Positions 3,043 through 64,000 of a stretch of 64,000 nucleotides of DNA are shown one piece after another; position 1 is the stretch's first letter; every line of letters starts with the position of its first letter. Source of the stretch: a virus. Made by a program: the position numbers and the translations under genes. Under the pieces are notes generated by a model. The model was given only the letters and a program-made list of their open reading frames with translations, was not told the DNA's origin and ran no database searches. The DNA is taken from the IMG/VR virus record IMGVR_UViG_3300037010_002253, positions 17,363-81,362 of that record. One strand, written 5' to 3'.

Positions 3043-3693
3043 TCAAGAGGTTTTCTTTACCCTCGCGAGGTGCTGGTTGAACTCAGACTTCACGTCGGGC
3101 CGTGTCGCGACGCCTCGGAGGGCGGCCGTGGAAGTGATGGAACCCGCTTTCTGCACGCCGCGCATGATCATGCAGTAGTGGGACGCCTCCATCACCACAA
3201 AGACCCCCGCCGGATCCACGAGGTCAACGAAGAAGTCAGCGACCTCTAGCGTCAGCCGCTCCTGAGTCTGGAGCTTGTGTGAGAAGAAGTCGACGATCCG
3301 CGGGATCTTCGACAGCCCGACGATCCGCTTCCTGGGGATGTACCCGACGTGTGCCACGCCGACGAAGGGGAGCATGTGGTGGGCGCAGAGAGACGCGAAG
3401 GGCACGTCCGCCACCATCACGATCTCGTTGTACCCGTCGGCGTCGAAGGTGGTCAGCTTCGCAAGGAACTCCGCTCGCTTATCGTCGCGGTACGACGAGA
3501 GCAGCTCGTCGTAGTACATACGAGCCACCCGCATCGGGGTGTTGGCGAGGTCGAGGTGAGCGGACTCTAGGATGGGAAGCCCATCGAGGACCTTCTCCAA
3601 CGACTCTGATAGCCGGTTCAGTGTCTCGTCGCGGTCGTCGGAACCTGCATCTCGCGTCGAAGGCTGCTTCGCGCGTCGCCGAGTAGCTCGCAT
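3043..3693 (-). CDS. folE: GTP cyclohydrolase I
   Basis: Converts GTP to 7,8-dihydroneopterin triphosphate, the first step of preQ0 synthesis. The zinc and active-site signatures are present: SLCAHHMLPFVG, and SHYCMIMRGVQKAGS near the end. The ATG at 3693 with AGGAG upstream gives 216 residues; a GTG at 3735 would add 14 residues that are not typical of the family. It clusters with queE and queD, which indicates a 7-deazaguanine role rather than folate synthesis. A small gene overlaps its 5' end. Confidence 0.93.
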   Translation of the reverse strand: MRATRRRAKQPSTRDAGSDDRDETLNRLSESLEKVLDGLPILESAHLDLANTPMRVARMYYDELLSSYRDDKRAEFLAKLTTFDADGYNEIVMVADVPFASLCAHHMLPFVGVAHVGYIPRKRIVGLSKIPRIVDFFSHKLQTQERLTLEVADFFVDLVDPAGVFVVMEASHYCMIMRGVQKAGSITSTAALRGVATRPDVKSEFNQHLARVKKTS

Positions 3694-3839
3694 GTCGTCC
3701 CAGTCTCCTGGATACCCGCCGTGTGGATGTCGCACTCCGACCCATCGGCGTCGTCACGCTCGACGACGATGACGAGACGATGGCCCGTCAGGGTCTCAAC
3801 CCTTCCCGTCCGCTCGTCCGTCACCATCACCGAGAACAT
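3618..3839 (-). CDS. Small hypothetical protein between queE and folE
   Basis: 73 residues from an ATG with GAGG eight bases upstream. The first 50 residues alternate charged and hydrophobic residues (GHRLVIVVERDDADG) and look like a small beta-rich domain. The tail overlaps the start of folE by 76 nt in another frame. No family is recognised. It may be a real small gene translated between queE and folE, or a leader that couples their translation. Confidence 0.45.
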   Translation of the reverse strand: MFSVMVTDERTGRVETLTGHRLVIVVERDDADGSECDIHTAGIQETGTTCELLGDARSSLRREMQVPTTATRH

Positions 3840-3844
3840 GGCGT

Positions 3845-4546
3845 TCACCTCAAGGAGTAAAGGAGCTTGTGTGCTTGGGGGAGTACACGCACATCTGGTG
3901 CACTTGTCAACCCAACCCGCCGCAGGCTGACGAAGTATTCGGTGACTTCTAGAAGAAACTCCCGCCCCTTGCTGTACTCGGGCTGCACGACGAAGTGAGG
4001 GGGGTTTCCTGCGCTACCCCACAAATCCTTCACGTCCTTGAACAGCTCGTTCGCATCGTGAACTTCCTCCCGAGTCGAGACGACGATCTTGATCTGCGTC
4101 TCCCGCTTCCGTCCGTGGTCCCGCTGGGTCACGAGAAAGCGGTACAGGTCCGCCACCATCCGCGGATGGTGCAGCTTCGGGGAGATGGAGAGGAGGTCCG
4201 CCGCGAAGCAAAGCTCCTGGTGGAAGAGGCTCCCCTGGGTTTCGACGGTGACGTGTCGCCCGGTGAGCCCGAGCCGGTACGCCAGCGTCGTGCACTCCTC
4301 GGCCTGTAGGAACGGGTTCCCTCCTGTGATGACGACGTGACGGATCCCGTAGGACTTCACGTCCTGCACGACTTCATCGACCGTCCTCTCGGCGCCGGCC
4401 TTCGCGTCCCACGACCCCTTGGTGTCGCACCAGGAGCAAGTGAACTCGCACCCTTGCAGGCGCACGAAGACGCTGGGCATCCCGACCAGGACGCCCTCGC
4501 CCTGGACCGTGGGCCAGCAGTACCCCTCGAAATCTACGACGCGCAT
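3845..4546 (-). CDS. queE: 7-carboxy-7-deazaguanine synthase (radical SAM)
   Basis: 233 residues. QueE rearranges 6-carboxytetrahydropterin to 7-carboxy-7-deazaguanine. The SAM-cluster motif C-x3-C-x2-C is seen in LQGCEFTCSWCDTKGSWD, preceded by the family's PTVQGEG signature, with TGGNPF and VETQGS further on. The ATG at 4546 overlaps the queD stop (ATGA) and has AAGGAG eight bases upstream, so the in-frame extension to 4585 is not needed. Length and motifs are normal for an active enzyme. Confidence 0.93.
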   Translation of the reverse strand: MRVVDFEGYCWPTVQGEGVLVGMPSVFVRLQGCEFTCSWCDTKGSWDAKAGAERTVDEVVQDVKSYGIRHVVITGGNPFLQAEECTTLAYRLGLTGRHVTVETQGSLFHQELCFAADLLSISPKLHHPRMVADLYRFLVTQRDHGRKRETQIKIVVSTREEVHDANELFKDVKDLWGSAGNPPHFVVQPEYSKGREFLLEVTEYFVSLRRVGLTSAPDVRVLPQAHKLLYSLR

Positions 4547-4947
4547 CAGGCCAGCTCCTTCGTGGGAAGGACGATCTGCGCCCACGAGGTCTCCGTCTCG
4601 AAGACGGTGACGGATTCAAGGCCCACCTCCGCGTCCGCATCCATCGCCAGGAGAAGGCCGCAGACCTTGTCCACGATCCACGCCGCGATGTTCTCGGCGC
4701 TGGGGTTCTTCGCCTTGAACTCCGGCAGGTCGTTCAGGGTCTTGTGGTCGAGGGCGTTCCGCACGGCCTTGAGCACGTTGAAATCGAGGAGGAACCCGGT
4801 CTCGTCGAGCTTCTCCCCGTACAGGACGATCTCCGCCTTGTAGCTGTGCCCATGTAGGTTTCCGCAGGGGTGGTCGTTGGGCAGGCCCTTGAGGACGTGG
4901 GCGGCTTCCCACCTGATCGTCTTCCCGATTCTGTAGAGAGCGTTCAC
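4546..4947 (-). CDS. queD: 6-carboxy-5,6,7,8-tetrahydropterin synthase
   Basis: 133 residues, of usual size for QueD/PTPS enzymes. Zinc ligands His17, His32 and His34 sit in AAHVLKG and NLHGHSYK, and the catalytic cysteine is in HPCGN. It converts dihydroneopterin triphosphate to the QueE substrate. Its start overlaps the end of the upstream NlpC/P60-like gene and its stop overlaps queE (ATGA at both ends), so queD-queE-folE form a translationally coupled block. Confidence 0.93.
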   Translation of the reverse strand: MNALYRIGKTIRWEAAHVLKGLPNDHPCGNLHGHSYKAEIVLYGEKLDETGFLLDFNVLKAVRNALDHKTLNDLPEFKAKNPSAENIAAWIVDKVCGLLLAMDADAEVGLESVTVFETETSWAQIVLPTKELA

Positions 4948-5537
4948 TTGTCTTGCTCCTGTTCCCCATCCGGGAACGGCAGCTTCTCGATGTTGACGAT
5001 CTCCCGCACCATGCGGTGAATCGTCCCGTGTTCATCCCAGAGCACGCCGAAAGAATAGAACCAGCGGTGCTCGGATTCCAGGATGATCTCATTCCCTTCC
5101 GCGTCCCGCTGCCCGCCTTCGATGACGCGCACCTTCCAGCAGGCGGACTCCTTGTCCTTCGTGACCTCTTCGACGAGGAAAACGTGTTCATCCCCACCGC
5201 CATCCGAACCACCGCCGACGCGAACCCAATCACCAGGCTCCGGGAAGTCGTACCGCTCTCGAACCGCGTTGCTCGCTCGCGCGATGGTGGACAGGTTCGC
5301 CATCGCGAACCCCATGGTGTAGTAGCGGAGGACAGGGGACTGGAGTCCCATGAGCCGCAGGAACCCCGCGATGACGAGGGCGCAGCCGGAGGTCTTCTTG
5401 CCGGCGTAGTAGTCACGCATCCTCGGAGGGTCTTCCGGGGCCATCAGGAGGTCGACGTACCTCTCGCGTTGCTCCGTGACCCCGCAACCGATGAACAGCC
5501 GTGCTACCTCGACGATTCTTTCCCTGATGGTCGGCAT
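4944..5537 (-). CDS. NlpC/P60-like cysteine peptidase candidate
   Basis: 197 residues. A Cys in SGCALVIAGFLR, a downstream PGDWVRVGGG strand and a His in DEHVFLVEEV follow the Cys-PGD-His order of NlpC/P60 and CHAP papain-like amidases. This makes it a candidate peptidoglycan hydrolase or endolysin. There is no signal peptide or cell-wall-binding domain, and it sits next to queD rather than to the holin candidate. The ATG is preceded by AGGAAAGG. A non-lytic role is possible. Confidence 0.6.
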   Translation of the reverse strand: MPTIRERIVEVARLFIGCGVTEQRERYVDLLMAPEDPPRMRDYYAGKKTSGCALVIAGFLRLMGLQSPVLRYYTMGFAMANLSTIARASNAVRERYDFPEPGDWVRVGGGSDGGGDEHVFLVEEVTKDKESACWKVRVIEGGQRDAEGNEIILESEHRWFYSFGVLWDEHGTIHRMVREIVNIEKLPFPDGEQEQDK

Positions 5538-11871: not shown

Positions 11872-12987
11872 CTACCTCTCCACCAGCGCCTCACGGATGT
11901 CCGCGCGGATCGCCTCTTGGATGTCCTCGTGTTCGCGCAGAATCGCAAGAAACTGCGCGGCGCTCGACGCCTCGATGCCATACCCCTCTAGGTTCGCCCC
12001 CCGCTGCTCGAGGAGGTCGTACCCACGCGCGAGGTTGAACAACATGTCGGGGACGTCGAGGCCGGGCTCGATCTCGCTCGACCACGCGCCCTTGCCGCTC
12101 CCGCCGCTCTCCGCCCACGGTAGGAAGTAGAACGAGAACTTCCCCACCCGCTCCGGCGTCGCGGTCTTGTTCTTCACGCAGCGCACGTTGAAGGTCCGCG
12201 AGACGATCTTGCGGTGCTCGGACTTGTCCTTCTCGGTGTACCGCAACTCCCCTTTCTTGAACTGAAGGGCGATGCTTTTCCAGTGAAGGATGCTACGCGC
12301 CTGGATCGGTTCCGGTTCGGGGGTTCCAGTCGGGGACCACTTCCCGATCGCGCTGCGCACCTGAGAGATCCCGAGGATGGCCGTGTTCGACCCGCCCTGG
12401 TTCATCGCCGCGTAGGCCCGCCGCATGACACGCCCCCACATCTGCGAGGACCCGCCGCCGCCGTACGCCTGCTTCTCGATCCCCGCCGACGCCTCCGTCG
12501 CCGTGCCGAAGCTCTGGAACGAGTCGAGAGCCAGCAGGTCGATGAGACCAGACTCGAACATGGTCATGGCCACCTCCATCGAGGTGTCTCCCATCCCCAC
12601 GTCGACCATGATGAGCTTGTCTACGTTCACACCGAGCTTCCTCGCCCAGGCTGCGTCGAACCCCTCGCGGAAGAACCCAGCGGCGAGGCCGCCGTTCCTC
12701 TGGGTCTCCGCAATCGCGAGAAGCATAGCGAGAGACTTCCCGCTCGACTCCTCGCCGTGCAACTCCGTGAGCATCCCCTTCGGGTACCCGCCGCCCGTCA
12801 GGACGTCGAGCGTGTCGATCCCCGTGGGGATTCGCTGGACGGGCGGGTGGTCGGTCCCGAGGTAGACGTGACCGTCCTCGAGCTCCCTGTTGATGGTCCC
12901 CATCATCGCCTTGAGCTGCTCCATCCTCGAGGGGACCCTCTCGGTGGCGGCGACCTTCTTCGTCTTCGTGACCTTCTTCTTCGGCAT
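11872..12987 (-). CDS. RecA-like recombinase
   Basis: 371 residues. Walker A is HGEESSGKS after the family strand MLTELHG, and Walker B is IDLLALDSF. The GISQVR segment after the AILG strand matches the RecA/UvsX core. A basic N-terminal tail (PKKKVTKTKK) precedes the core. It promotes strand pairing in phage recombination and repair, acting with the ssDNA-binding candidate and the nucleases downstream. It lies just after the polymerase gene in the transcript. Confidence 0.92.
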   Translation of the reverse strand: MPKKKVTKTKKVAATERVPSRMEQLKAMMGTINRELEDGHVYLGTDHPPVQRIPTGIDTLDVLTGGGYPKGMLTELHGEESSGKSLAMLLAIAETQRNGGLAAGFFREGFDAAWARKLGVNVDKLIMVDVGMGDTSMEVAMTMFESGLIDLLALDSFQSFGTATEASAGIEKQAYGGGGSSQMWGRVMRRAYAAMNQGGSNTAILGISQVRSAIGKWSPTGTPEPEPIQARSILHWKSIALQFKKGELRYTEKDKSEHRKIVSRTFNVRCVKNKTATPERVGKFSFYFLPWAESGGSGKGAWSSEIEPGLDVPDMLFNLARGYDLLEQRGANLEGYGIEASSAAQFLAILREHEDIQEAIRADIREALVER

Positions 12988-12995
12988 GGTGACTC

Positions 12996-15869
12996 CTACT
13001 GCTTCGCCTTACCCCAGGACTCCCCGAACCCGATCTCCGCTGGCGTGTCGACGCGGAGGTCCTTGAAGCCGTACACGCGGTACGGGTGGCTGACGTACTC
13101 CTCGATGATCGGCCGGCACTCCTCCTCCGCGCCCTTCGGGACGTTGAACAGCAGCTCGTCGTGAATCTGAAGGGTCATCTCGACGCCCAGCTCCTCAAGT
13201 CGCTTGTCCGCGTCGATGAGCAGCATCGACATCTTCAATAGGTCGGCTGCACTTCCCTGGATGACGTAGTTGAACGCCTGCCGCTCCGCCCGCCTGCGCA
13301 ATCCCATCTCGTCGGAGTTGATGAAGGGGATGGCCACCCGACGCCGGAGGATGGTCCTCACGAACCCGTCCTGGCGAGCTCTGCGCTGGATCCGGTCGAT
13401 GCCCGACCTCATCCCCGCGTAGAGGTTGAAGAAGCCCTGCACCGCTTCCTTCCCTGCCTGCTCGCTGACGCCCGCCATCTGCGCGTACGTGCTCGGACCC
13501 ATCCCGTACAGGGTGTTCCCGACGACGCGACCCTCAACCGTGAAGCGATGCCGAGGACCTGCGTTCACGATGTCGTAGACCCGGGCGACCTGTTTCGGTT
13601 GTTGATAGAATAAGTGGTCAGCCTCAGATTCTGCGGCGAGTAGTGTCCATCGTTGTCGATCCGATCGAACACCAAGCCTTTGAAGGTAGAGTCCGACCAC
13701 TTCTTCAACGCCCAGCGTACGAAGTGCTCCCTCGACCGAAACAAGACCTTGATGCCCCTCCCCTTGTACCGGGGGGACGAGACATGCGTGTCCCTCTCGC
13801 ACCTCTGTACCATCGCGGCGTACCGACGACCGAGCATCGCCGCCCGGGAATCGTGGTACTTCTGCCCGCGCTGGCATCGGCAGTTCGTAGTTTTCCTCGC
13901 GCGAACGTTGTCCACTAGAAGCCAATGCTTCTTTTCGCACGCGGAGCACTCCGCCTCTACGTACCTTCTCGCCCTCGACCCCGGCCTCGCGCGCCGCTCG
14001 ACCTCGCCGGTCAAACGCATCGTACCCAACGGCAGCTTCCCCAGCTCCGCCAACAGCAAGTCGTCCGAAACGAACCGTGGATGCTGCGAGCCCGAACGGA
14101 ATCTTGTGTCCTTCATCGGTGTAGACCTCGTGGCCGAGAGTTGCGGTGAGACCATCGTAAGTGAGGACGGCCTTTTCACCCTTGAACACCACCCCCTCAT
14201 GGTGGACCCACTCTACCCCGTCCCATAGAAGATCGGAATCCTGAACTCGCTCGATTGGGACGAGGCCACGCTTCGTGAGAACCCGCTGGCCCTCCGCGAT
14301 GCAGCCGAAGTTGATCGTCTTGCTGCGCCGTCGCGCCTCGGGGAACTTCGCCTTGACCTCGTGCAGCAGGTCCCCGTCCACAGTCCGCGCTCCGACCCAG
14401 CGACGGACCTCCGAATCGATCTCGGTCGCCGTCAGGGAGTGCAAGTCCCACCCCCGGTTGATGGCGTTCAGCATCACCGCGTCGTTCGTGAAATGCGCCG
14501 CAAGACGCAACTCGATCTGGCTCAGGTCGATGTCCCCGACCACGCATCCATCGGGCGCGATGAACGCCTCGCGAATGTGGAAGGCGTCGTTCTCCATGGA
14601 CGGGATGTTCTGGAGGTTGTGCGCGGAGGACGACAAGCGAAGGGTCGCAGTTCCCGTCTGCTTGAGGTTGGTGTGGACCTTCCCGCCGTACTCACCGGCC
14701 GAGTGGATGAACGGCTCCACGTACGTTCCGCGCAACTTGTCCAGCTCGCGGTACGCCAGGATGATGTCCGCGATCTGCTTCGCCACTGGGTCCTTGAAGC
14801 TGGTCAGGGAATCGTCATCTGTCGACGGGAGGCCCGTGGGGGTTCGCTTCGCGATGGGCGTTCGGAGGTGGACCTCGAAGAGGTTCGCTACCTGCTTGGA
14901 CGACCCGAGGTTGAAGTCGGCGAGCACGTCATTAGAGACGCCGTACTTCTGGCAGGTGCGGAGGAACTCACTGACCGTATCCTCGATCTTCGCGTCGACC
15001 TGAAGCTTCATCTCCTCGAGCCGCACCGTGTCCACCCGACACCCGCGCCGCTCCATGCGGTAGAGGACCTGGGTGTAAGGTAGGTCGAACTGCTTGTAGT
15101 AGTCCCAGTAGGATTTGCCGTTGACCCACTCCTCCGCCTCCAGGGCGGCCCTAAGGACCTCGAACCCCATCAGGGAGAAGAGCGGGTCTTTGCAGGCGTA
15201 CGTGATGAGACGGTGGACGCCCACAGGGTCCTGCACCACCTCGTCGAGGTGGGGGACCTCAAACGTCTTGCTAGGTGTCCCGTCTCGCTTGAGCTTCGGC
15301 CGCTTGAACGTCTCGCTGTACTCGCGGATGGCACCCCACGTCTCGCCGAAGAGGGTGATGAGCTTGTACCCGAAGTACCTCTCCATGATGTGTTTCAGGC
15401 CGTGGTACATCTCGCCGCTCGCGGACAGCGTGTCCATGACCTGCGTGTCCCCCGCGAACCCATCGAGCGTGATCCCGTGGTTCCCGCAGACGTGCATGTC
15501 GTACTTGAGGTTCGACCCGACCTTGCCGATGTCGGGGTCCTCCAAGACGCCCTTGAAGTGGCGCAGGGTCCCTTCCCACGGCCCCCAGTTCGGGACGAAG
15601 ATCCGCGAGCCAGGAGCGCCTGGGTCGTACCCGCACGAGAACTGTGCGCAGATCGCGCGCGCCTTTCCTTTCGCGTGCTCCTTCCTCGGGTCGCATCCGA
15701 CCGTCTCGGTATCGAAGCCGACGACTTCCGCGTCCCGGATCATCCGAAGGGCTTGCCCAACCTTCTCCGGGGTATCAGTGATGAACGCCCCATCGACCTC
15801 GGGCAGCGTCGGTCCGCTGTAGTCGCGCCGCTTCTTGCGGCCGAGGTTCAAGTGCCACTGGTTTCCCAC
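12996..15869 (-). CDS. Family A DNA polymerase interrupted by an intein
   Basis: 957-residue precursor (694 residues after splicing) from a GTG with AAGGAG upstream. A 3'-5' proofreading domain comes first: VVGFDTETVG (Exo I), SNLKYDMH (Exo II) and YACKDPL (Exo III). The polymerase domain follows, with motif A VVGDIDLSQIELRLAAH, motif B (O-helix) split by the intein after RRRSKTINFG and resuming at TLYGMG, and motif C QIHDELLF. Joined, motif B reads KTINFGTLYGMG, the normal family form, so splicing is required for activity. This is the replicative polymerase, grouped with helicase, primase and ssDNA-binding genes. Confidence 0.95.
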   Translation of the reverse strand: MGNQWHLNLGRKKRRDYSGPTLPEVDGAFITDTPEKVGQALRMIRDAEVVGFDTETVGCDPRKEHAKGKARAICAQFSCGYDPGAPGSRIFVPNWGPWEGTLRHFKGVLEDPDIGKVGSNLKYDMHVCGNHGITLDGFAGDTQVMDTLSASGEMYHGLKHIMERYFGYKLITLFGETWGAIREYSETFKRPKLKRDGTPSKTFEVPHLDEVVQDPVGVHRLITYACKDPLFSLMGFEVLRAALEAEEWVNGKSYWDYYKQFDLPYTQVLYRMERRGCRVDTVRLEEMKLQVDAKIEDTVSEFLRTCQKYGVSNDVLADFNLGSSKQVANLFEVHLRTPIAKRTPTGLPSTDDDSLTSFKDPVAKQIADIILAYRELDKLRGTYVEPFIHSAGEYGGKVHTNLKQTGTATLRLSSSAHNLQNIPSMENDAFHIREAFIAPDGCVVGDIDLSQIELRLAAHFTNDAVMLNAINRGWDLHSLTATEIDSEVRRWVGARTVDGDLLHEVKAKFPEARRRSKTINFGCIAEGQRVLTKRGLVPIERVQDSDLLWDGVEWVHHEGVVFKGEKAVLTYDGLTATLGHEVYTDEGHKIPFGLAASTVRFGRLAVGGAGEAAVGYDAFDRRGRAAREAGVEGEKVRRGGVLRVRKEALASSGQRSREENYELPMPARAEVPRFPGGDARSSVRRDGTEVREGHACLVPPVQGEGHQGLVSVEGALRTLGVEEVVGLYLQRLGVRSDRQRWTLLAAESEADHLFYQQPKQVARVYDIVNAGPRHRFTVEGRVVGNTLYGMGPSTYAQMAGVSEQAGKEAVQGFFNLYAGMRSGIDRIQRRARQDGFVRTILRRRVAIPFINSDEMGLRRRAERQAFNYVIQGSAADLLKMSMLLIDADKRLEELGVEMTLQIHDELLFNVPKGAEEECRPIIEEYVSHPYRVYGFKDLRVDTPAEIGFGESWGKAKQ
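13565..14116 (-). CDS. HNH homing endonuclease nested out of frame in the intein
   Basis: 183 residues in the +1 frame relative to the polymerase, from an ATG at 14116 with GAGG nine bases upstream to a TGA at 13565. A zinc-finger-like set is Cys57, Cys60, Cys79 and Cys81 (CSACEKK...CRC). The C-terminal half carries the phage HNH/AP2-type pattern RYKGRGIKVLFRS, then the catalytic-like loop DRIDNDGHYSPQNLR and NNRNR. The gene starts inside intein block B and ends inside block F, so it sits where an in-frame endonuclease domain would normally be. It probably cuts intein-free polymerase alleles to drive homing. Confidence 0.85.
   Translation of the reverse strand: MKDTRFRSGSQHPRFVSDDLLLAELGKLPLGTMRLTGEVERRARPGSRARRYVEAECSACEKKHWLLVDNVRARKTTNCRCQRGQKYHDSRAAMLGRRYAAMVQRCERDTHVSSPRYKGRGIKVLFRSREHFVRWALKKWSDSTFKGLVFDRIDNDGHYSPQNLRLTTYSINNRNRSPGSTTS
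14126..14129 (-). promoter_or_regulatory. Internal ribosome-binding site for the nested endonuclease
   Basis: GAGG within the codons for His-Glu-Val of intein block B, nine bases before ATG 14116. It supports independent translation of the nested endonuclease from the polymerase mRNA. Confidence 0.55.
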
Positions 15870-15896
15870 GAAATGACTCCTTTTGCTTATCCGACG

Positions 15897-15925
15897 AAAA
15901 GAGGGGAACCCGTGGGTTCCCCTCT
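15897..15925 (-). terminator. Rho-independent terminator after the ssDNA-binding gene
   Basis: Minus strand AGAGGGGAACCC, a very short loop, and GGGTTCCCCTCT form a 12-bp GC-rich stem followed by TTTT, 18 nt after the upstream stop. It should limit transcription into the polymerase gene, separating ssDNA-binding protein levels from polymerase levels. Confidence 0.85.
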
Positions 15926-15942
15926 CCTCACCGCGCTACGTC

Positions 15943-16887
15943 TCAGCCCATGATCGTGTCGTCGTCCATGTCCTCCGTGTAGCTAGAGGTCGACGCGGCA
16001 TCCGGTCCGCCCGCGAACGGGTTGTCGATGCCGAGCTTCTCCGCCTGGGTCTTCGCCGACATCGGCTTGCAGACCGCGGGAAGATCCCACGGTTCAAGGT
16101 CGTCGAGCCAGTCGGGCTGCTCGCCGAACTCGTCCATGATGGGGTTGAAGGAGTAGGCCGTGGACTTCCCGCCGCCGGTCCGCTTCACGAGGATGGGCAC
16201 GTCGAAGATCGACCCGCGCTCGGGGCTCTTGCAGCCCGAACACGCGAGGATCTCGGTCACGCCTTCCGGCAGGTCCGTGGGGTCGTCCACGTCGACCTCG
16301 CGGCCCTTCGCGTCCTTGTAGCCGAGGACCTTGATCTTCCCCTTCTTGCAGGAGCGGCACCGCTTCGCCGCGATGTCGTTCGCGCCGGAGAGGGCCTGCG
16401 CCCACATCATCGACATCGAGTACTTCTTCTGGCCACCGCGCGACCGCTCCAGCTTCTTCTTGCAGCCGTCGCAGGTGTTCTTCCCGCCGACCTCCTCGTC
16501 GTACGTGCAGGCGGTCCAGGAGGTCTTCTCCGAATCCTGGCCGCGGAACTTGACCGTGGTCGTCTCCTTGTGGAACCAGCGGGAGTCCGCGACGTTGAAC
16601 GTCGCCTTCGGCGTCGGCTTCCCGACCCGCTTGTCGTTCCGCTGGTAGGCGAAGCAGGGAACGCACCCGAGATGACCCTCGTGGCCCTGTGCGCAGGTCA
16701 GGGTCAGGAACTTGTTCCCGCCGAGGCTGATGGTGTGATCGTGGTTGAGGTACGGCTCGGACGCCGTACCGTTGAAGTACAGCTTCGCTTCCTCGCCGTC
16801 GTAGAGGAAGAAGTTCGGTGCGTATTGCATCCGGTCACGCTTCATCTCGTCCGCGACCTTGGCTACCTGTCGAAAGTTGGGAGGCAT
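15943..16887 (-). CDS. Single-stranded DNA-binding protein candidate with zinc motifs
   Basis: 314 residues. Two CxxC groups (KNTCDGCKKK; KRCRSCKKGK) and a third CSGC suggest zinc ribbons. The first 130 residues are beta-rich with many aromatics, and the C-terminus ends in an acidic tail (YTEDMDDDTIMG) like those SSB and gp32 proteins use to recruit partners. Position between primase and polymerase, and its own terminator, fit an abundant ssDNA-binding protein. The family is inferred, not recognised by motif. Confidence 0.7.
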   Translation of the reverse strand: MPPNFRQVAKVADEMKRDRMQYAPNFFLYDGEEAKLYFNGTASEPYLNHDHTISLGGNKFLTLTCAQGHEGHLGCVPCFAYQRNDKRVGKPTPKATFNVADSRWFHKETTTVKFRGQDSEKTSWTACTYDEEVGGKNTCDGCKKKLERSRGGQKKYSMSMMWAQALSGANDIAAKRCRSCKKGKIKVLGYKDAKGREVDVDDPTDLPEGVTEILACSGCKSPERGSIFDVPILVKRTGGGKSTAYSFNPIMDEFGEQPDWLDDLEPWDLPAVCKPMSAKTQAEKLGIDNPFAGGPDAASTSSYTEDMDDDTIMG

Positions 16888-16972
16888 GTTGCTTTACTTT
16901 CTTTGTTCGCTGTCCGCTATTCGGACCAGTCGATTCCACCACAGTTTTAGGGGAAACACTAGGGAAAAACAG
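16888..16972 (-). promoter_or_regulatory. AT-richer leader upstream of the ssDNA-binding gene
   Basis: 85 nt without a gene, noticeably richer in A/T than the surroundings and holding the second copy of the leader motif (GAATAGCGGACAG at 16922-16910). Probably a promoter for the ssDNA-binding gene; no convincing -35/-10 pair is visible. The ribosome site is a weak AAAGAAAG. Confidence 0.35.
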
Positions 16973-18052
16973 TCACTTCTTTCGTCGGCCACCTCGTTCC
17001 ATGACCATGTTGTCGATGCGCCACTCGTCGTACGGCACGACCCCGTGGATCGCGTCACGGAGCTGCTTCGCTCCATCAGAGACCTCGACAAGCGAACCCA
17101 TGTCCTTCACGCCCTCAGGGTACTTGAGCACGTAGACCGACCCCGGTCCCATTTTCTCAAGAAGCTGGTCCCCGACGAAGAACGTGGTGAGCTGCCCATC
17201 CCGGTCGCTGTCGAACGCGAGGAAGACAAGCGAGTAGGTTCGCATCACATCGATCTGGTGCGTCGTCACCCGCGATCCCATCGTCGACACCGGGAGGTAC
17301 GGCGCGACCTGGGTCGGGTGGTCCCCGGGTCGACCGGCAAGGTGGACGTAGTTGGGGAGGTCGCCCAGGTCGAGCTGGTCGAACGCAATAGCGTCGAGCT
17401 GCCCCTCCGTGACGACCAAGGTCTTCACCCCGTGGGGGCGCCTGTGCTCCCCGTAGAGGTGTTGGCCCTTGGAGAACCCGAGATGGAGGTACTTGGGGTT
17501 CTGCTCCTCCCACACAGCGCGTTTCGAGAACCCAACCAGCAGCCCGCTCCCCGACCGAACGGGGATGGTGGCGCGCTGTGCTTCCGTGTCGAACCCGATC
17601 TCCCACTCCTTGAGCACGTCCTTCGTGAACCCACGGTCCAGCAAGTACTTCGGGCAGCGATCGTAGAGGGTCAGGAGACGGGGGTTCGGAGCAGCGTGGA
17701 TCACGTCCCCTGACGCCTTCGCGCCATGCGTGCGCCTCGCATCGTAGTCGGGGAGGATGGTGTCAGCCTCCTCCTCGGGGTCAAGTCCGCGGGCGAACGA
17801 CGCGGTCTCGCCGATCGCCTTCTGCGGGGACCATCCGCACGCTTCCACAAGGAAGGTGTAGATATTACCCTGCGCGCCACACCGCGACGAGTAGCAGACG
17901 TACAGACCCGTCTCCGCGTGCATAGCGAACTGGGTCCCGTCCTTGACGGCGTGGTACGGACAAGTACTTGTAAAGTTCCCGCTCGCAGAGAGCCGGATGC
18001 GCTCGCACCCGGCCTCCTTCATCCACCTCTCGACCTTCGCCGCGTTGCTCAC
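16973..18052 (-). CDS. DnaG-type DNA primase
   Basis: 359 residues. The N-terminal CHC2-type zinc finger has Cys31, His34, Cys53 and Cys58 (TCPYH...YVCYSSRC). The Toprim core shows VVTEGQLDAIA (Glu216) and FLAFDSDRDG (Asp281, Asp283, Asp285). It makes RNA primers for the phage fork. Shorter than bacterial DnaG because the C-terminal helicase-binding region is reduced. Coupled to the DnaB-like gene by a 4-nt overlap. Confidence 0.92.
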   Translation of the reverse strand: MSNAAKVERWMKEAGCERIRLSASGNFTSTCPYHAVKDGTQFAMHAETGLYVCYSSRCGAQGNIYTFLVEACGWSPQKAIGETASFARGLDPEEEADTILPDYDARRTHGAKASGDVIHAAPNPRLLTLYDRCPKYLLDRGFTKDVLKEWEIGFDTEAQRATIPVRSGSGLLVGFSKRAVWEEQNPKYLHLGFSKGQHLYGEHRRPHGVKTLVVTEGQLDAIAFDQLDLGDLPNYVHLAGRPGDHPTQVAPYLPVSTMGSRVTTHQIDVMRTYSLVFLAFDSDRDGQLTTFFVGDQLLEKMGPGSVYVLKYPEGVKDMGSLVEVSDGAKQLRDAIHGVVPYDEWRIDNMVMERGGRRKK

Positions 18053-48884: not shown

Positions 48885-49868
48885 TCAGGCCGTCTCGATC
48901 GAGACCAGATTCGGATTCTCGAGGACGTTCTGGCCCCAGATCGCGTACCACGCGATGCCGTGCTCGCGGCCGAAGTCCTCCGCGCCGTTGTCGCGCAGCT
49001 CGACCGGCATCGCCGTGGCGTGGCCGAACGAGTACTCGCCGAACATGACCGCCTGGTAGATGTGAACCTGGTTGCTCGCGTAGCCGGCGCGCAGGTAGTC
49101 CTTGAAGCCGACGTCCACGTAGTCGCCCGTCTCCGGGTTGACGTTGTTGTTCGCGCCGTTCGGCATGACGGTCGTCGCGACGAACCGCACGTCCTCGAAG
49201 CGACCGATCTCGCCCGTGTAGATCTGGCCCGACCCCGCGTAGAGCGCGGCGTTGACCCAGTCGTTGTCCTCGCGCAGGCCGCGCGCCTGGTGAGGGTGAA
49301 CGAAGCAGATGTAGTGGTCGCCACCCCACTTCGGAACGTTGCCCGTCTCGAGCGTCTCGACGCCGTCGCGGATCGTGATCGTCGAGAAGATGTCGCCGGC
49401 CGTGATCTGCGAGCGCGCCGCCTTCTGACCGCCGTAGATCGTGTTCGTCGCGAGCATCGCCGTGTCGCGGATCTGGCCGTCGAGGACGAGGGCCATGTCG
49501 CGACCGAGGAGGATAGACGCCGCCGAGAGCTGGTCGAAGAACGACGTCTGGAGGAGGTACTCCGAGAAGCCGATCGCGTTCCCGTTCTCGAAGACGGTGA
49601 TGGACTGCATCGACATGCTCATCCCACGCGTCTTCATGCGGACGCCCTCGGTGAGCCGGCCGCCGCGCTTGATGTTCCCGTACCTCGGGAGCTGGATCGT
49701 GCGACCAGGCTGCACACCCAGCTCGGTCTTCTTCGTGGAGAACTGGTCGAACTTGAGAACCGGCAGAGCCGCGAACCAGATTTCCGCCGAGAAGACGTCA
49801 CGCACCGCATTCGCCTGCTGCGAGAAGCCGGTGCCCGTCTGGGCCGCCGTGTTGAGGACGCTGGACAT
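48885..49868 (-). CDS. Major capsid protein (N4 gp56-type)
   Basis: 327 residues. AEIWFAALPVLKFDQFSTKKTE, then PRYGNIKRGGRLTEG and SMQSITVFENGNAIGFSEYL, match the N4 gp56 major capsid family of HK97 fold. The C-terminal part shows FVHPHQARGLREDNDWVNA and the strand VMFGEYSFGHATAM. It is preceded by the scaffold and follows the usual head gene order. Confidence 0.92.
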   Translation of the reverse strand: MSSVLNTAAQTGTGFSQQANAVRDVFSAEIWFAALPVLKFDQFSTKKTELGVQPGRTIQLPRYGNIKRGGRLTEGVRMKTRGMSMSMQSITVFENGNAIGFSEYLLQTSFFDQLSAASILLGRDMALVLDGQIRDTAMLATNTIYGGQKAARSQITAGDIFSTITIRDGVETLETGNVPKWGGDHYICFVHPHQARGLREDNDWVNAALYAGSGQIYTGEIGRFEDVRFVATTVMPNGANNNVNPETGDYVDVGFKDYLRAGYASNQVHIYQAVMFGEYSFGHATAMPVELRDNGAEDFGREHGIAWYAIWGQNVLENPNLVSIETA

Positions 49869-59463: not shown

Positions 59464-59883
59464 TCAGGGAAGGAGAACGCATTGCTTGAACCGCGCCGGG
59501 ACCATCCCGTGAGTGCAGAGCACCTTCTCGTAGATCCCTCCCCGCACGCCGAACTCCCCGAGGGTCTGCATCCACTGGGGACTCAGCGCGGCTCGGATCG
59601 CTTCGTGGATCTCCTGCGTCACCGCCTCATGGAAGACGCCACGATCGCGGAAGCTCCAGAGGTAGAGCTTGAGCGATTTCGACTCCACGCACCAGTCCTT
59701 CGGGACATAGCGGATTCGGAAGGTCGCGAAGTCGGGCTGCCCCGTCTTCGGACAGAGGCAGGTGAACTCGGGGATGTAGAGGTCCACGAGGTTGCCGTGG
59801 ATCGGGTTCGTGAACCGCTCGAGACCATCCGCTCCGTGGGGGTGGTTCTTGTGCTCGCCGAGCTTGGTGATGTTGTCCGTCAC
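59464..59883 (-). CDS. queF: 7-cyano-7-deazaguanine reductase
   Basis: 139 residues from a GTG overlapping the queC stop (GTGA), or 143 from 59895. PEFTCLCPKTGQPDFATFRI holds the catalytic Cys, and SKSLKLYLWSFRDRGVFHEA is the family signature. It reduces preQ0 to preQ1. The C-terminus is shorter than in bacterial QueF. Its presence suggests the phage can make preQ1 rather than stopping at preQ0. Confidence 0.9.
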   Translation of the reverse strand: MTDNITKLGEHKNHPHGADGLERFTNPIHGNLVDLYIPEFTCLCPKTGQPDFATFRIRYVPKDWCVESKSLKLYLWSFRDRGVFHEAVTQEIHEAIRAALSPQWMQTLGEFGVRGGIYEKVLCTHGMVPARFKQCVLLP

Positions 59884-60587
59884 GGCGTCCCCCACTTGAT
59901 ACCGTTTCGGACCGCCCTCTTGAGCGCTGGGTCCTCCGCGTTCGCCTCCGCGAACCCCTTCTCACGGAGAAGGCACGACGGGCACTTCCCGCACCCTGGG
60001 ACGTGTCCCTGGTAGCAGGTGACAGAAAGACCGACCGCCTCCCACGCCAGGGGACCGAGCTCCAGGGCCATCTTCACCGTCGCCGCCTTCGAGAGGTACA
60101 TGAGAGGCGTGGCGATGCAGAACTCCTCCAGTCCGTTTCCGAGACGGATGGACTCCGACAGCGCGTCCATCGTCGCCTTGCGGCAGTCCGGGTACCCGGA
60201 GTAGTCCGTCTCGCAGACGCCGAGCACGATCTCGCACCATCCGCGCGAGACCGCGATCCCGCCCGCGATGGCGCCGAAGACGACGTTGCGCCCCGGGACG
60301 AAGGTCGACGGGAGCCCCTGATGTCCCCCGTCCGCCTTGACCTCGATGTCCTTGCTCGTGAGGGCGCTGCGCACGCTCGTCCCGAACCCGGTCAGGTCGA
60401 TGATCATGTGCTCGACCTCAGCCAGCTCCGCGATCTTCAACGCCGCGCGCACCTCCGTCGCGTGACGCTGCCCGTAGTCGAAGGTGACCGCGAGGAGGTT
60501 CTCGTAGTGCTCCTTCGCCCAGAACAGGCAGGTCGTGGAGTCCTGACCGCCAGAGAAAACGACAACTGCTCCGGTTCTCTTACTCAT
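59880..60587 (-). CDS. queC: 7-cyano-7-deazaguanine synthase
   Basis: 235 residues. ATP pyrophosphatase loop SGGQDST at 12-18, LPSTFVPGRN near 92-101, and zinc cysteines 191, 199, 202 and 205 (CYQGHVPGCGKCPSC). It makes preQ0 from the QueE product. All canonical motifs are present, so it is likely active. Start with a GGGGTGAAAT ribosome site. Confidence 0.93.
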   Translation of the reverse strand: MSKRTGAVVVFSGGQDSTTCLFWAKEHYENLLAVTFDYGQRHATEVRAALKIAELAEVEHMIIDLTGFGTSVRSALTSKDIEVKADGGHQGLPSTFVPGRNVVFGAIAGGIAVSRGWCEIVLGVCETDYSGYPDCRKATMDALSESIRLGNGLEEFCIATPLMYLSKAATVKMALELGPLAWEAVGLSVTCYQGHVPGCGKCPSCLLREKGFAEANAEDPALKRAVRNGIKWGTP

Positions 60588-61308
60588 ATTTCACCCCAAG
60601 GTAGCGAAACGCCTTCTGTCGGTTGAGACACTGACAGCAGATGCCGCAGTTCACTTTCCACCCACGAATGCACGAGCTGGTCAGCTCGAGCGGCGCGCCC
60701 ACCTCCAAGCCCATCTGGACGATCTGGGTCCTGTCCATCCGCGCGTCGAGGAACGGCGCGTGGAAGGTCATCTCGGGCTCTTTCAGTCCCGCCGCGATCT
60801 CGTTGAGCTTGCCCACGAACCACGGGGACACGTCGTTCAGGGGAAGCTGCCCCTCGTCGTGCGCTCGCCACATGGGTCCGTCGCACTGGAACCCGAAGAA
60901 CGCCTTCGGCGGGGACATGCTCGGCGGTCGGTCCCGGAAGAAGACCATGTTCATTGCGATACTCGCCATCCAGAGGTGGAGGGCAGGCGTGTACGGGAAC
61001 GAGTTGAGGTCGGGCTCGTACCTCGTCACCGCAGGGACCAGGGACATCATCCCTCCCGCCTGCGGCGGCGCCTCGGGGCGCGGGTGTAGAACGTCCGAAG
61101 ACACGACCCGGACCACGGGACGCATCGTCGTGACCTTCTCCAGCGCGGCCAGGATGGGCCGAAGCGCGCGCTTCTTCTTCTCGTCGCCCACCGTCAACAG
61201 GAGAAGCTCGTCGCTTTTGGCGTCGATTCCGTACCTGTACGGGTGCTGCGCGAGGTCGAACGTGAGAACCGTGGAGTCGATTCCTCCACTGAAAAAGACT
61301 AGCGGCAT
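60580..61308 (-). CDS. Divergent QueC-like protein
   Basis: 242 residues. The PP-loop SGGIDST (7-13) and zinc cysteines 213, 221, 224 and 227 (CIRGWKVNCGICCQC) are kept, but the PxGRN motif after the loop is replaced by FPYTPALHLW, and overall sequence differs from queC next door. It may act on a different acid substrate, such as a modified deazaguanine, or form a heteromer with QueC. No amidotransferase domain is fused. Its start lacks a clear ribosome site. Confidence 0.8.
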   Translation of the reverse strand: MPLVFFSGGIDSTVLTFDLAQHPYRYGIDAKSDELLLLTVGDEKKKRALRPILAALEKVTTMRPVVRVVSSDVLHPRPEAPPQAGGMMSLVPAVTRYEPDLNSFPYTPALHLWMASIAMNMVFFRDRPPSMSPPKAFFGFQCDGPMWRAHDEGQLPLNDVSPWFVGKLNEIAAGLKEPEMTFHAPFLDARMDRTQIVQMGLEVGAPLELTSSCIRGWKVNCGICCQCLNRQKAFRYLGVKYE

Positions 61309-61828: not shown

Positions 61829-62101
61829 TCACGTCTTCTCAGGCTCCCGCCCTGACGTGTCGATGGTAAATCGACCGGGCTTGCTTCCCTTGACCACGCC
61901 ACCCCTCCGCTCGTTGTAGGCGTTCGCGAAGTTCTGCTGCTCTGGGGTCATGTTCTCCACAGAGGTTCCGAGGGCAGCCGCGATCCTCCCGGTTGACTCC
62001 GCGCGGAGCTGCTCGCGCGCGGTGGTCGCGTTCCGCGCCGCGTCGGCCTGCTCCACCTCCACCATCAGGTCGATGAAGCCGCTGGGTCCGGTGTTGCTCA
62101 C
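61829..62101 (-). CDS. Small helical hypothetical protein
   Basis: 90 residues, helical, with EVEQADAARNATTAREQLRAE and a GTSVENMTPEQQNFANAYN segment. The overlap with the ADP-ribosyltransferase stop makes a coupled pair. Possible partner or inhibitor of that enzyme; this is inference from position. Confidence 0.6.
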   Translation of the reverse strand: MSNTGPSGFIDLMVEVEQADAARNATTAREQLRAESTGRIAAALGTSVENMTPEQQNFANAYNERRGGVVKGSKPGRFTIDTSGREPEKT

Positions 62102-63084
62102 TTCGTCACCCGCTCCAGCTCGAGGACCATCAGGTTTCTGTCGATCTTGCCGTTGGTGGTTCCGTAGTACCGCCCCCTCACGCGGAAGGAGTCACCCTTC
62201 GGGAGCAGCACCTCTCGCTCCGCCGCGTACAAAGAGAGATGTTCCACAGCTACACCACGCGCACCGCGGAGCTCTAGCAAGACGCTGTACGGTCTGTCCG
62301 AGGTACTTGTGATGAACTGCTCCATGACCCGCGTGTCCCTCGTTGCTGACGTGATGGCTCCCAGACGCAGTCGATTACGGCCAGCAAGGTCAACGAACTG
62401 GTCCCGGGTCAAGTTCTTGAGCCCGCGTAGTAGGACGCCCGTGACTGGTTTCGCTTGCTCGGCAAGGACAGTGGAGACATCCGCGTGGTGGTTCATCACG
62501 TAGGAGGCGACGAGCTTCGCGGACACGTCCCTACCGAAGTGCTCCGCGTTGAATGTCTGACGGATCGACGCGTCGCCGCCCCAGAGGCGCTTCTCGATGT
62601 ACTCCTGGAGCTTCTCTCCACTCGCCCCACGGTCCACCATGCGGATCATCCGACACCAGTCGTCGTCCGTATACCTCTTCAGCGCAAGCTTCTCGTGAGG
62701 GAGTAGCTCGGGGTTTACGGGTCGCTTCGCGGTAAGGTGACCCTTCCAGACCCAGGACGTCTCCTCGGTGAGGTGCTTGTTCTCTTGTCTCATCCAAGAG
62801 GGAGAAGCGGTGGCCGGTATGTCCTTGTTCCTCGCAAAGAACCCAGGGTCAGCCTTCATGCTGGCGAGGTTTTGTTCCCCCCGCGCGCGCACCTGCTCCT
62901 TCGTCACGCGAAGTTTCGCAGGAGTGATCCCAAGTGCTTTCTGAATACGACCTACCGCTTCCTTGCGAGCCCCATCCGACAATGGAGAACCCAGGCTGCT
63001 GGGAGGGGTCCCGTAGACCTTCGCCCCCGACTTCGAGAAGTAGAAGCGTCCACCTCGGGGACCGATCTGGATGCCGCTGCTCAT
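62098..63084 (-). CDS. Probable ADP-ribosyltransferase
   Basis: 328 residues. VLLRGLKNLTRDQF (Arg220), a TSATRD strand followed by FITSTSDR, and AAEREVLLPKGDSFRV (Glu289-x-Glu291) fit the R-S-E class of mono-ADP-ribosyltransferases. The N-terminus GPRGGRFYFSKSGAKVYG is typical of phage head-linked proteins of this kind. It may be packaged and injected, as T4 Alt is, to modify host proteins. An STS-type serine is only partly conserved. Confidence 0.65.
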   Translation of the reverse strand: MSSGIQIGPRGGRFYFSKSGAKVYGTPPSSLGSPLSDGARKEAVGRIQKALGITPAKLRVTKEQVRARGEQNLASMKADPGFFARNKDIPATASPSWMRQENKHLTEETSWVWKGHLTAKRPVNPELLPHEKLALKRYTDDDWCRMIRMVDRGASGEKLQEYIEKRLWGGDASIRQTFNAEHFGRDVSAKLVASYVMNHHADVSTVLAEQAKPVTGVLLRGLKNLTRDQFVDLAGRNRLRLGAITSATRDTRVMEQFITSTSDRPYSVLLELRGARGVAVEHLSLYAAEREVLLPKGDSFRVRGRYYGTTNGKIDRNLMVLELERVTK

Positions 63085-63818: not shown

Positions 63819-64000
63819 TGTGGATGTTCTCCATTCCGAAGTGCTGTCGAACGCTCGCCACCAGGTCCGCCGCCGCCGGGTTGCGCTCCCTGAACCACAG
63901 CGGGTCCGTGTGGTACGCAAGCCACGACTCCGCGAAGAACTCATGTGGGTCCTTCGCAGCGTACTTGGAGATGAGGCCCGTCTTCTTGTAGAGAGACTCT
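63805..64000 (-). CDS. C-terminal end of a metallopeptidase-like protein (partial)
   Basis: 64 residues are visible; the gene runs past the right edge. SLYKKTGLISKYAAKDPHEF and FAESWLAYHTDPLW resemble the C-terminal helix of ATLF-type zinc metallopeptidases (YA...PxEFFAE). The EFFAE glutamates could be the third zinc ligand. The rest of the enzyme lies outside the window, so catalysis cannot be judged. Confidence 0.5.
   Translation of the reverse strand, partial: ESLYKKTGLISKYAAKDPHEFFAESWLAYHTDPLWFRERNPAAADLVASVRQHFGMENIHNGNS

Follow-up and report, generated by a model that had tools for sequence, protein, structure and literature searches.

Modification of phage DNA with 7-deazaguanine derivatives has been described in phages 9g, CAjan, Dp-1 and HVTV-1. 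The base dPreQ1 was measured in Dp-1 and HVTV-1, which carry QueF-family genes, while DpdA is required in CAjan; modified DNA resists restriction (PMC6884629). The Nanhaivirus phages vB_DshS-R5C (R5C) and Pan1 likewise carry FolE, QueD, QueC and QueF together with a DpdA-type protein annotated as queuosine tRNA-ribosyltransferase, and R5C also has a queE match. Unlike here, a single QueC devoid of the zinc cysteines was seen in these two phages. The QueCs of R5C, Pan1 and RHEph04 (L002:25345-26190, L016:5876-6709 and L015:3296-4132, respectively) have all lost the zinc-binding cysteines and kept the other motifs. Two phages distantly related to the present one in virion genes, Bacteroides phage BS162P1 and Streptomyces phage BRock, share with it a phrog_887 DpdA. 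BS162P1 also has folE, queD and queE, but it carries one other divergent QueC-family gene beside dpdA, whereas BRock has no other pathway match. Compared with the 9g, CAjan, Dp-1 and HVTV-1 systems, the locus described here is distributed over two gene clusters, encodes a divergent DpdA with the C-terminal Cys-cluster part as a separate gene, and contains an extra divergent gene of the QueC family, hereafter queC2.

The window analysed is a stretch of 64,000 nucleotides corresponding to positions 17363-81362 of a viral contig with a length of 81,362 bp, and the phage is known from this metagenome contig alone. A scan of IMG/VR with canonical QueCs returned the contigs G001 (IMGVR_UViG_3300013131_000042, 67,961 bp) and G002; the overlapping part of G002 encodes the same proteins as G001, and both represent one related phage. 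G001 is syntenic with our contig over most of the genome, with 58% identity for the terminase and 75% for a protein (window 48885-49868) that can be aligned with the major head protein of BRock. Both phages are myovirus-like and distantly related to BRock, as indicated by sheath and baseplate matches. Our contig ends in an exact 127-bp direct terminal repeat (contig 1-127 = 81236-81362, window 63874-64000), and the orthologs of a left-end gene (contig 1162-1557) and of a right-end gene (79191-79463) lie close to each other in G001. The genome is therefore probably complete, with about 81,235 bp in a circular assembly. A gene with a HEYGHH metalloprotease-like motif spans the junction of the contig ends. 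Elsewhere, the DNA polymerase I gene (window 12996-15869, minus strand) contains an insertion of about 260 amino acids missing from G001, located at KTINFG^C...VVGN^TLYGMG within a polymerase B motif, which looks like an intein, and a RadC-like JAB-domain protein (PF04002, E 2e-32) is encoded outside the window at contig 5024-5488.

The initial annotation had reported a full pathway, with folE, queE and queD at 3043-4947 and queF, queC and another gene of the QueC type at 59464-61308, and all six genes were recovered at these positions, on the minus strand (Table 1). It had also described the two clusters as lying far apart on the same strand. The strand is indeed shared; the distance is partly an artefact of where the contig was cut, as seen from the terminal repeat, since around the circle queC2 and folE are separated by about 23 kb and not 54 kb. 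On this map dpdA lies between both clusters, 4 kb from folE. The gene orders queC2-queC-queF-terminase (terL) and queD-queE-folE are conserved in G001, with one set at each contig end.

Table 1. Genes of the predicted 7-deazaguanine system (window coordinates unless marked as contig)
Gene	Position	Strand	Assignment and supporting match
folE	3043..3735	-	GTP cyclohydrolase I, first step from GTP; PF01227 E 3.6e-57
queE	3845..4585	-	radical-SAM 7-carboxy-7-deazaguanine synthase; best NCBIfam match TIGR03365 E 6e-33, under model cut-off
queD	4546..4947	-	6-carboxytetrahydropterin synthase; PF01242 E 1.4e-31
queF	59464..59895	-	unimodular preQ1 synthase (nitrile reductase type); TIGR03139 135.8 bits, cut-off 86.9
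queC	59880..60587	-	canonical 7-cyano-7-deazaguanine (preQ0) synthase; TIGR00364 211.7 bits, cut-off 150.3
queC2	60580..61308	-	divergent QueC-family ATP-pyrophosphatase, 242 residues; overlaps queC by 8 nt
dpdA	contig 15336-16505 (window -2026 to -857)	-	phrog_887, queuine tRNA-ribosyltransferase, E 4e-25
Cys-cluster gene	contig 12203-13009	-	C-terminal part of phrog_887, E 2.5e-7; 2.3 kb downstream of dpdA

The proteins of the pathway retain the residues expected of their families. FolE has intact CAHH and HYCMIMRG motifs and is 52% identical to its ortholog in G001, QueE has an intact CEFTCSWC (CX3CX2C) motif and an ortholog with 39-40% identity, and QueD has intact CGNLHGH, LDHKTLN and PSAEN motifs and an ortholog with about 61% identity. 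All of the SGGQDS, YGQRHATE, VPGRN and YPDC motifs and the zinc cysteines are present in the canonical QueC, which in a phmmer search of the PDB matched the QueC structure 3bl5 with an E value of 1.4e-55 and Cap9 with one of only 0.13. With the active-site motifs of FolE, QueD, QueE and QueC intact, the preQ0 pathway appears complete by sequence. QueF, whose gene overlaps queC by 16 nt, is 64% identical to its G001 ortholog and has intact CPKTGQPD and ESKSLKLY motifs, the latter corresponding to the E(S/L)K(S/A)hK motif that we take to be the mark of NADPH-dependent QueF. It passes the preQ1-synthase equivalog cut-off (TIGR03139), which designates it as a probable preQ1 synthase as opposed to an archaeosine-type QueF-L. 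The expectation that this set of genes can make preQ0 and preQ1 is borne out, at the level of prediction, by these families and intact motifs. An Rfam scan of the window gave no element such as a preQ1 riboswitch.

The initial annotation had seen no DpdA-type transglycosylase in the window and had expected the insertion step, or a tRNA-modifying alternative, to lie outside it. A search of the remaining genome for DpdA or a tRNA-guanine transglycosylase (TGT) led to a DpdA-type gene in the first 17.4 kb of the same contig, 0.86 kb left of the window. The predicted protein can be aligned with the products of genes close to queC on other viral contigs, all of them phrog_887 matches, and its relatives include those of BS162P1 and BRock. 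The motifs LDSGAF, HG and VDS-W (Asp/His/Asp) are common to DpdA and these viral proteins, BRock alone having a Ser in place of the second Asp. Residues D47, H173 and D193 would correspond to the Asp pair and His of TGT enzymes, with the catalytic roles assigned by family. The protein is divergent and matched neither the Pfam TGT models nor, by sequence, any solved structure. DpdA subfamilies 3 and 4, plus DpdL/M/N, were reportedly the subject of a 2023 study. In BRock the Cys-cluster part and DpdA form a single protein, and in BS162P1 this part has its own gene directly after dpdA; the product of the Cys-cluster gene probably serves, therefore, as a partner domain of DpdA. We also considered that dpdA might be divided by a split intein or an intron and dropped this idea, the second phrog_887 piece being a separate domain in view of these two arrangements. 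A gene for an HNH endonuclease (contig 16462-17220; PF13392 E 1e-6) extends over the beginning of the dpdA ORF and may be a mobile element whose insertion shifted the start of dpdA. In G001 the contig ends just past folE, so that a missing dpdA there is uninformative.

The pathway genes could alternatively supply preQ0 or preQ1 solely to host tRNA queuosine, a role that has been proposed for existing phages with the pathway but without DpdA (PMC6884629). We regard this as very improbable for the present phage, because a DpdA-type gene is found on the same contig and the Pfam models for tRNA-TGT, QueA and QueH were matched nowhere on it. The unmatched tRNA-TGT model also argues that the inserting protein is of the DpdA type and not a host-like TGT, and the tRNA alternative seems weakened by these family assignments. 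Returning to DNA modification, FolE, QueD and QueE would convert GTP into 7-carboxy-7-deazaguanine (CDG), the canonical QueC would combine CDG with ammonia and ATP to form preQ0, and QueF would reduce preQ0 to preQ1. DpdA would then swap this base for guanine in the phage DNA to give dPreQ1 (possibly also dPreQ0), and the modified DNA would block restriction enzymes. The sequence itself shows the genes with intact motifs, their presence on one apparently complete genome and a gene order conserved in G001, whereas the reactions, DNA as the target and protection from restriction are inferred from homology. The pathway, QueF and DpdA together predict that guanine is replaced by preQ1 or a derivative in the phage DNA, and anti-restriction DNA modification, a known kind of system, is the best reading of these genes. 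The divergence of this DpdA, the HNH endonuclease gene overlapping it and the separate Cys-cluster gene count against this reading. Among the scanned genes of unknown function, no Pfam candidate for an enzyme modifying dPreQ1 was recovered.

The second QueC-family protein is of a different nature. Family PF06508 covers residues 159-236 of QueC2 only, that is, the last ~78 residues (E 2e-14), and the protein reaches 38.2 bits on TIGR00364, the cut-off of which is 150.3. In an alignment with 37 viral QueCs, QueC2 retains the SGGIDS ATP loop and the zinc cysteines C-x7-C-xx-C-xx-C and has none of the YxQxHxxE, VPxRN and YPDC motifs. All three are missing in both QueC2 orthologs, the truncated G002 copy adding little to this count, and the QueC2 orthologs are alone among 86 QueC-family ORFs of the fetched loci in being without the three motifs. 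In E. coli QueC, mutating Y35, R99 or Y131 abolished activity (PMC13329287). Because motifs that include positions essential in the E. coli enzyme are gone, QueC2 should not make preQ0 and should be neither a canonical nor a back-up preQ0 synthase. The initial annotation had counted two QueC-type enzymes; membership of the second gene in the QueC family stands, but its counting as a second preQ0-maker does not, given the three missing motifs and its position in a separate deep lineage. Upstream of queC2, window 62098-63084 (minus strand) encodes a protein with weak ADP-ribosyltransferase similarity (PF01129 E 6e-6).

This lineage was examined by phylogeny and by searches for relatives. The QueC2 ortholog in G001 is 43% identical, with an invariant P-loop and invariant zinc cysteines, and queC2 overlaps queC in both phages. 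Among the fetched loci, most with limited flanks, the arrangement with two QueCs was seen in this genome and in G001/G002 only, and the search for further viral copies of QueC2 gave none beyond G001 and G002, which represent a single relative. Among the matches listed from bacterial genomes, plasmids and INPHARED phages, none was closer to QueC2 than about 20-27% identity over the full length, and where annotated nearly all were QueC or Gat-QueC. In the tree, QueC2 falls outside the viral QueC clade. A recent duplication of the phage's own QueC was considered, and the corresponding grouping was rejected (AU p 0.018), a value that is not final in view of the long branches. Another divergent QueC-family protein, in which LPYRN is kept and YPDC is gone, is encoded by BS162P1 (L006:16182-16907, annotated as hypothetical), where its gene directly precedes dpdA, and by the fecal contig MT835482 (L008:22205-22930, unannotated). 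A shared ancestry of these proteins and QueC2 is neither favoured nor rejected by the tree (AU p 0.29); with QueC2 included, this phage neighbourhood thus contains altered QueC-family genes more than once. On a Streptomyces angustmyceticus plasmid (L106:585-4240), queE, queD and folE occur with a QueC relative in which APDS replaces YPDC, next to 2-oxoglutarate oxygenase and ATP-grasp genes, perhaps as a cluster for a deazapurine natural product.

Could QueC2 be catalytically altered or inactive and merely assist QueC as a subunit, for example in a heteromer, without a reaction of its own? The loss of the substrate motifs and the gene overlap, which suggests co-expression, would be in line with such a role. 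However, SGGIDS and all of the zinc cysteines are invariant between orthologs that are only 43% identical, and these orthologs share the new motifs PYTPxL, FFGFQ, NDxSP and CGxCCQC, the last one adding a cysteine where the aligned canonical QueCs mostly carry Pro or His. Invariant ATP and zinc sites together with new conserved motifs suit an active enzyme with another substrate, and we consider a helper subunit improbable. Taken as a whole, the locus is best read as a complete set of genes by which the phage would replace guanine in its DNA, and in which QueC2 would be a separate, constrained enzyme and not a back-up, a reading of predicted functions to which we give a probability of roughly 0.7.

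The fold of QueC2 bears on its substrate. The AlphaFold model (pLDDT 81, pTM 0.82) was used in a Foldseek search, in which the best match of the modelled structure was QueC 3bl5 (E 1e-6), followed by YcfA and QatC; NcsA, LarE, TilS and YcfA were matched more weakly than QueC. In sequence searches, the sole PDB match was Cap9, the deazaguanylation ligase of type IV CBASS (9NTO; E 3.5e-4 to 4.8e-4), which is thus the closest solved sequence, and a profile of the two QueC2 orthologs left QueC structures unmatched up to E 10. QueC2 and Cap9 have in common the P-loop, the zinc site and an aligned DxSPx[FY] stretch. In Cap9, D117 reads the edge of the deazaguanine and Y115 stacks on the base, as the equivalent Asp and Tyr do in QueC (PMC13279940). 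D159 of QueC2 aligns with D117, and L157 aligns with Y115, this position being Leu or Ala in the QueC2 orthologs.

These similarities raise the question of whether QueC2 is a Cap9-like protein deazaguanylase, which would couple CDG from the phage's own supply to a protein of phage or host by way of its N-terminal glycine. The sole PDB match, the failure of the profile to reach QueC structures, the alignment of D159 and DxSPx[FY] with Cap9 and a slightly higher score on the PADLOC QueC model than on the canonical TIGR00364 (43.6 against 38.2 bits) all point in that direction. On the other hand, the Cap9 signature Y/FxQ(x)5E, RN, YxDC and CE(x)6C (PMC13329287) is not that of QueC2, which retains no more than the Asp and the zinc cysteines. 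Ten proteins scanned against PADLOC included no CD-NTase or CBASS match, none of the genes alignable from their start begins with Met-Gly in both phages, and the overlaps of queC2 with queC and of queC with queF point to base synthesis. We consider a Cap9-like activity improbable. QatC of the qatABCD system also has a QueC fold from which the canonical substrate motifs are lost, like QueC2 (TM-score 0.56 by query for the QueC2 model). QatC, however, has about 400 residues with N- and C-terminal extensions, a C(x)19CGxCxxRR zinc motif and no Asp, as opposed to the 242 residues, the C(x)7CxxCxxC motif and the kept Asp of QueC2, which does not have the defining features of QatC.

A substrate outside the deazaguanine pathway has also to be weighed, such as another base, a nucleotide or a cofactor, as for the PP-loop ATPases YcfA, LarE and TilS. 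The replacement of the stacking Tyr by Leu/Ala and the disappearance of all canonical substrate motifs except the Asp indicate that the substrate of QueC2 may not be a deazaguanine, and the weaker Foldseek matches to YcfA, NcsA, LarE and TilS go in the same sense. The zinc motif and the operon are nevertheless those of QueC, the best fold match is QueC 3bl5 and the Asp facing the Watson-Crick edge is kept, so we judge an outside substrate unlikely. That queC2 overlaps queC and that the Asp is retained both favour a function of QueC2 within the same pathway, and CDG is a plausible substrate because this Asp reads the deazaguanine edge in Cap9 and in QueC. The rebuilt substrate pocket argues against ammonia-to-CDG chemistry. 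QueC2 would then adenylate a carboxylate, plausibly that of CDG, and join it to an amine other than ammonia to give a further derivative within the same pathway. We tentatively propose such an amide ligase as the function of QueC2, with somewhat less than even odds. A phage precedent for carboxylate-plus-amine chemistry on DNA bases is CmoY, which belongs to a different system (PMC12783734). We recognised no enzyme for consuming or further converting the product of QueC2. A more far-reaching proposal, which is somewhat unlikely as it stands, is that QueC2 founds a new QueC-family lineage in phages, coupling a 7-deazaguanine carboxylate to a non-ammonia amine to form a new hypermodified DNA base or a phage-encoded nucleobase-protein conjugate; the amine may be a small amine, an amino acid or a protein N-terminus.

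The modification pathway as such was already known. The new element is a second gene of the QueC family, deeply divergent yet under constraint, that overlaps queC within a deazaguanine operon. Protein modification in anti-phage defence has recently been shown or proposed for the QueC relatives Cap9 and QatC. With its ATP and zinc sites retained and its substrate pocket rebuilt, a phage member of this family would allow a direct test of whether phages, too, employ chemistry of the Cap9/QatC type or produce deazaguanine derivatives that are so far undescribed.
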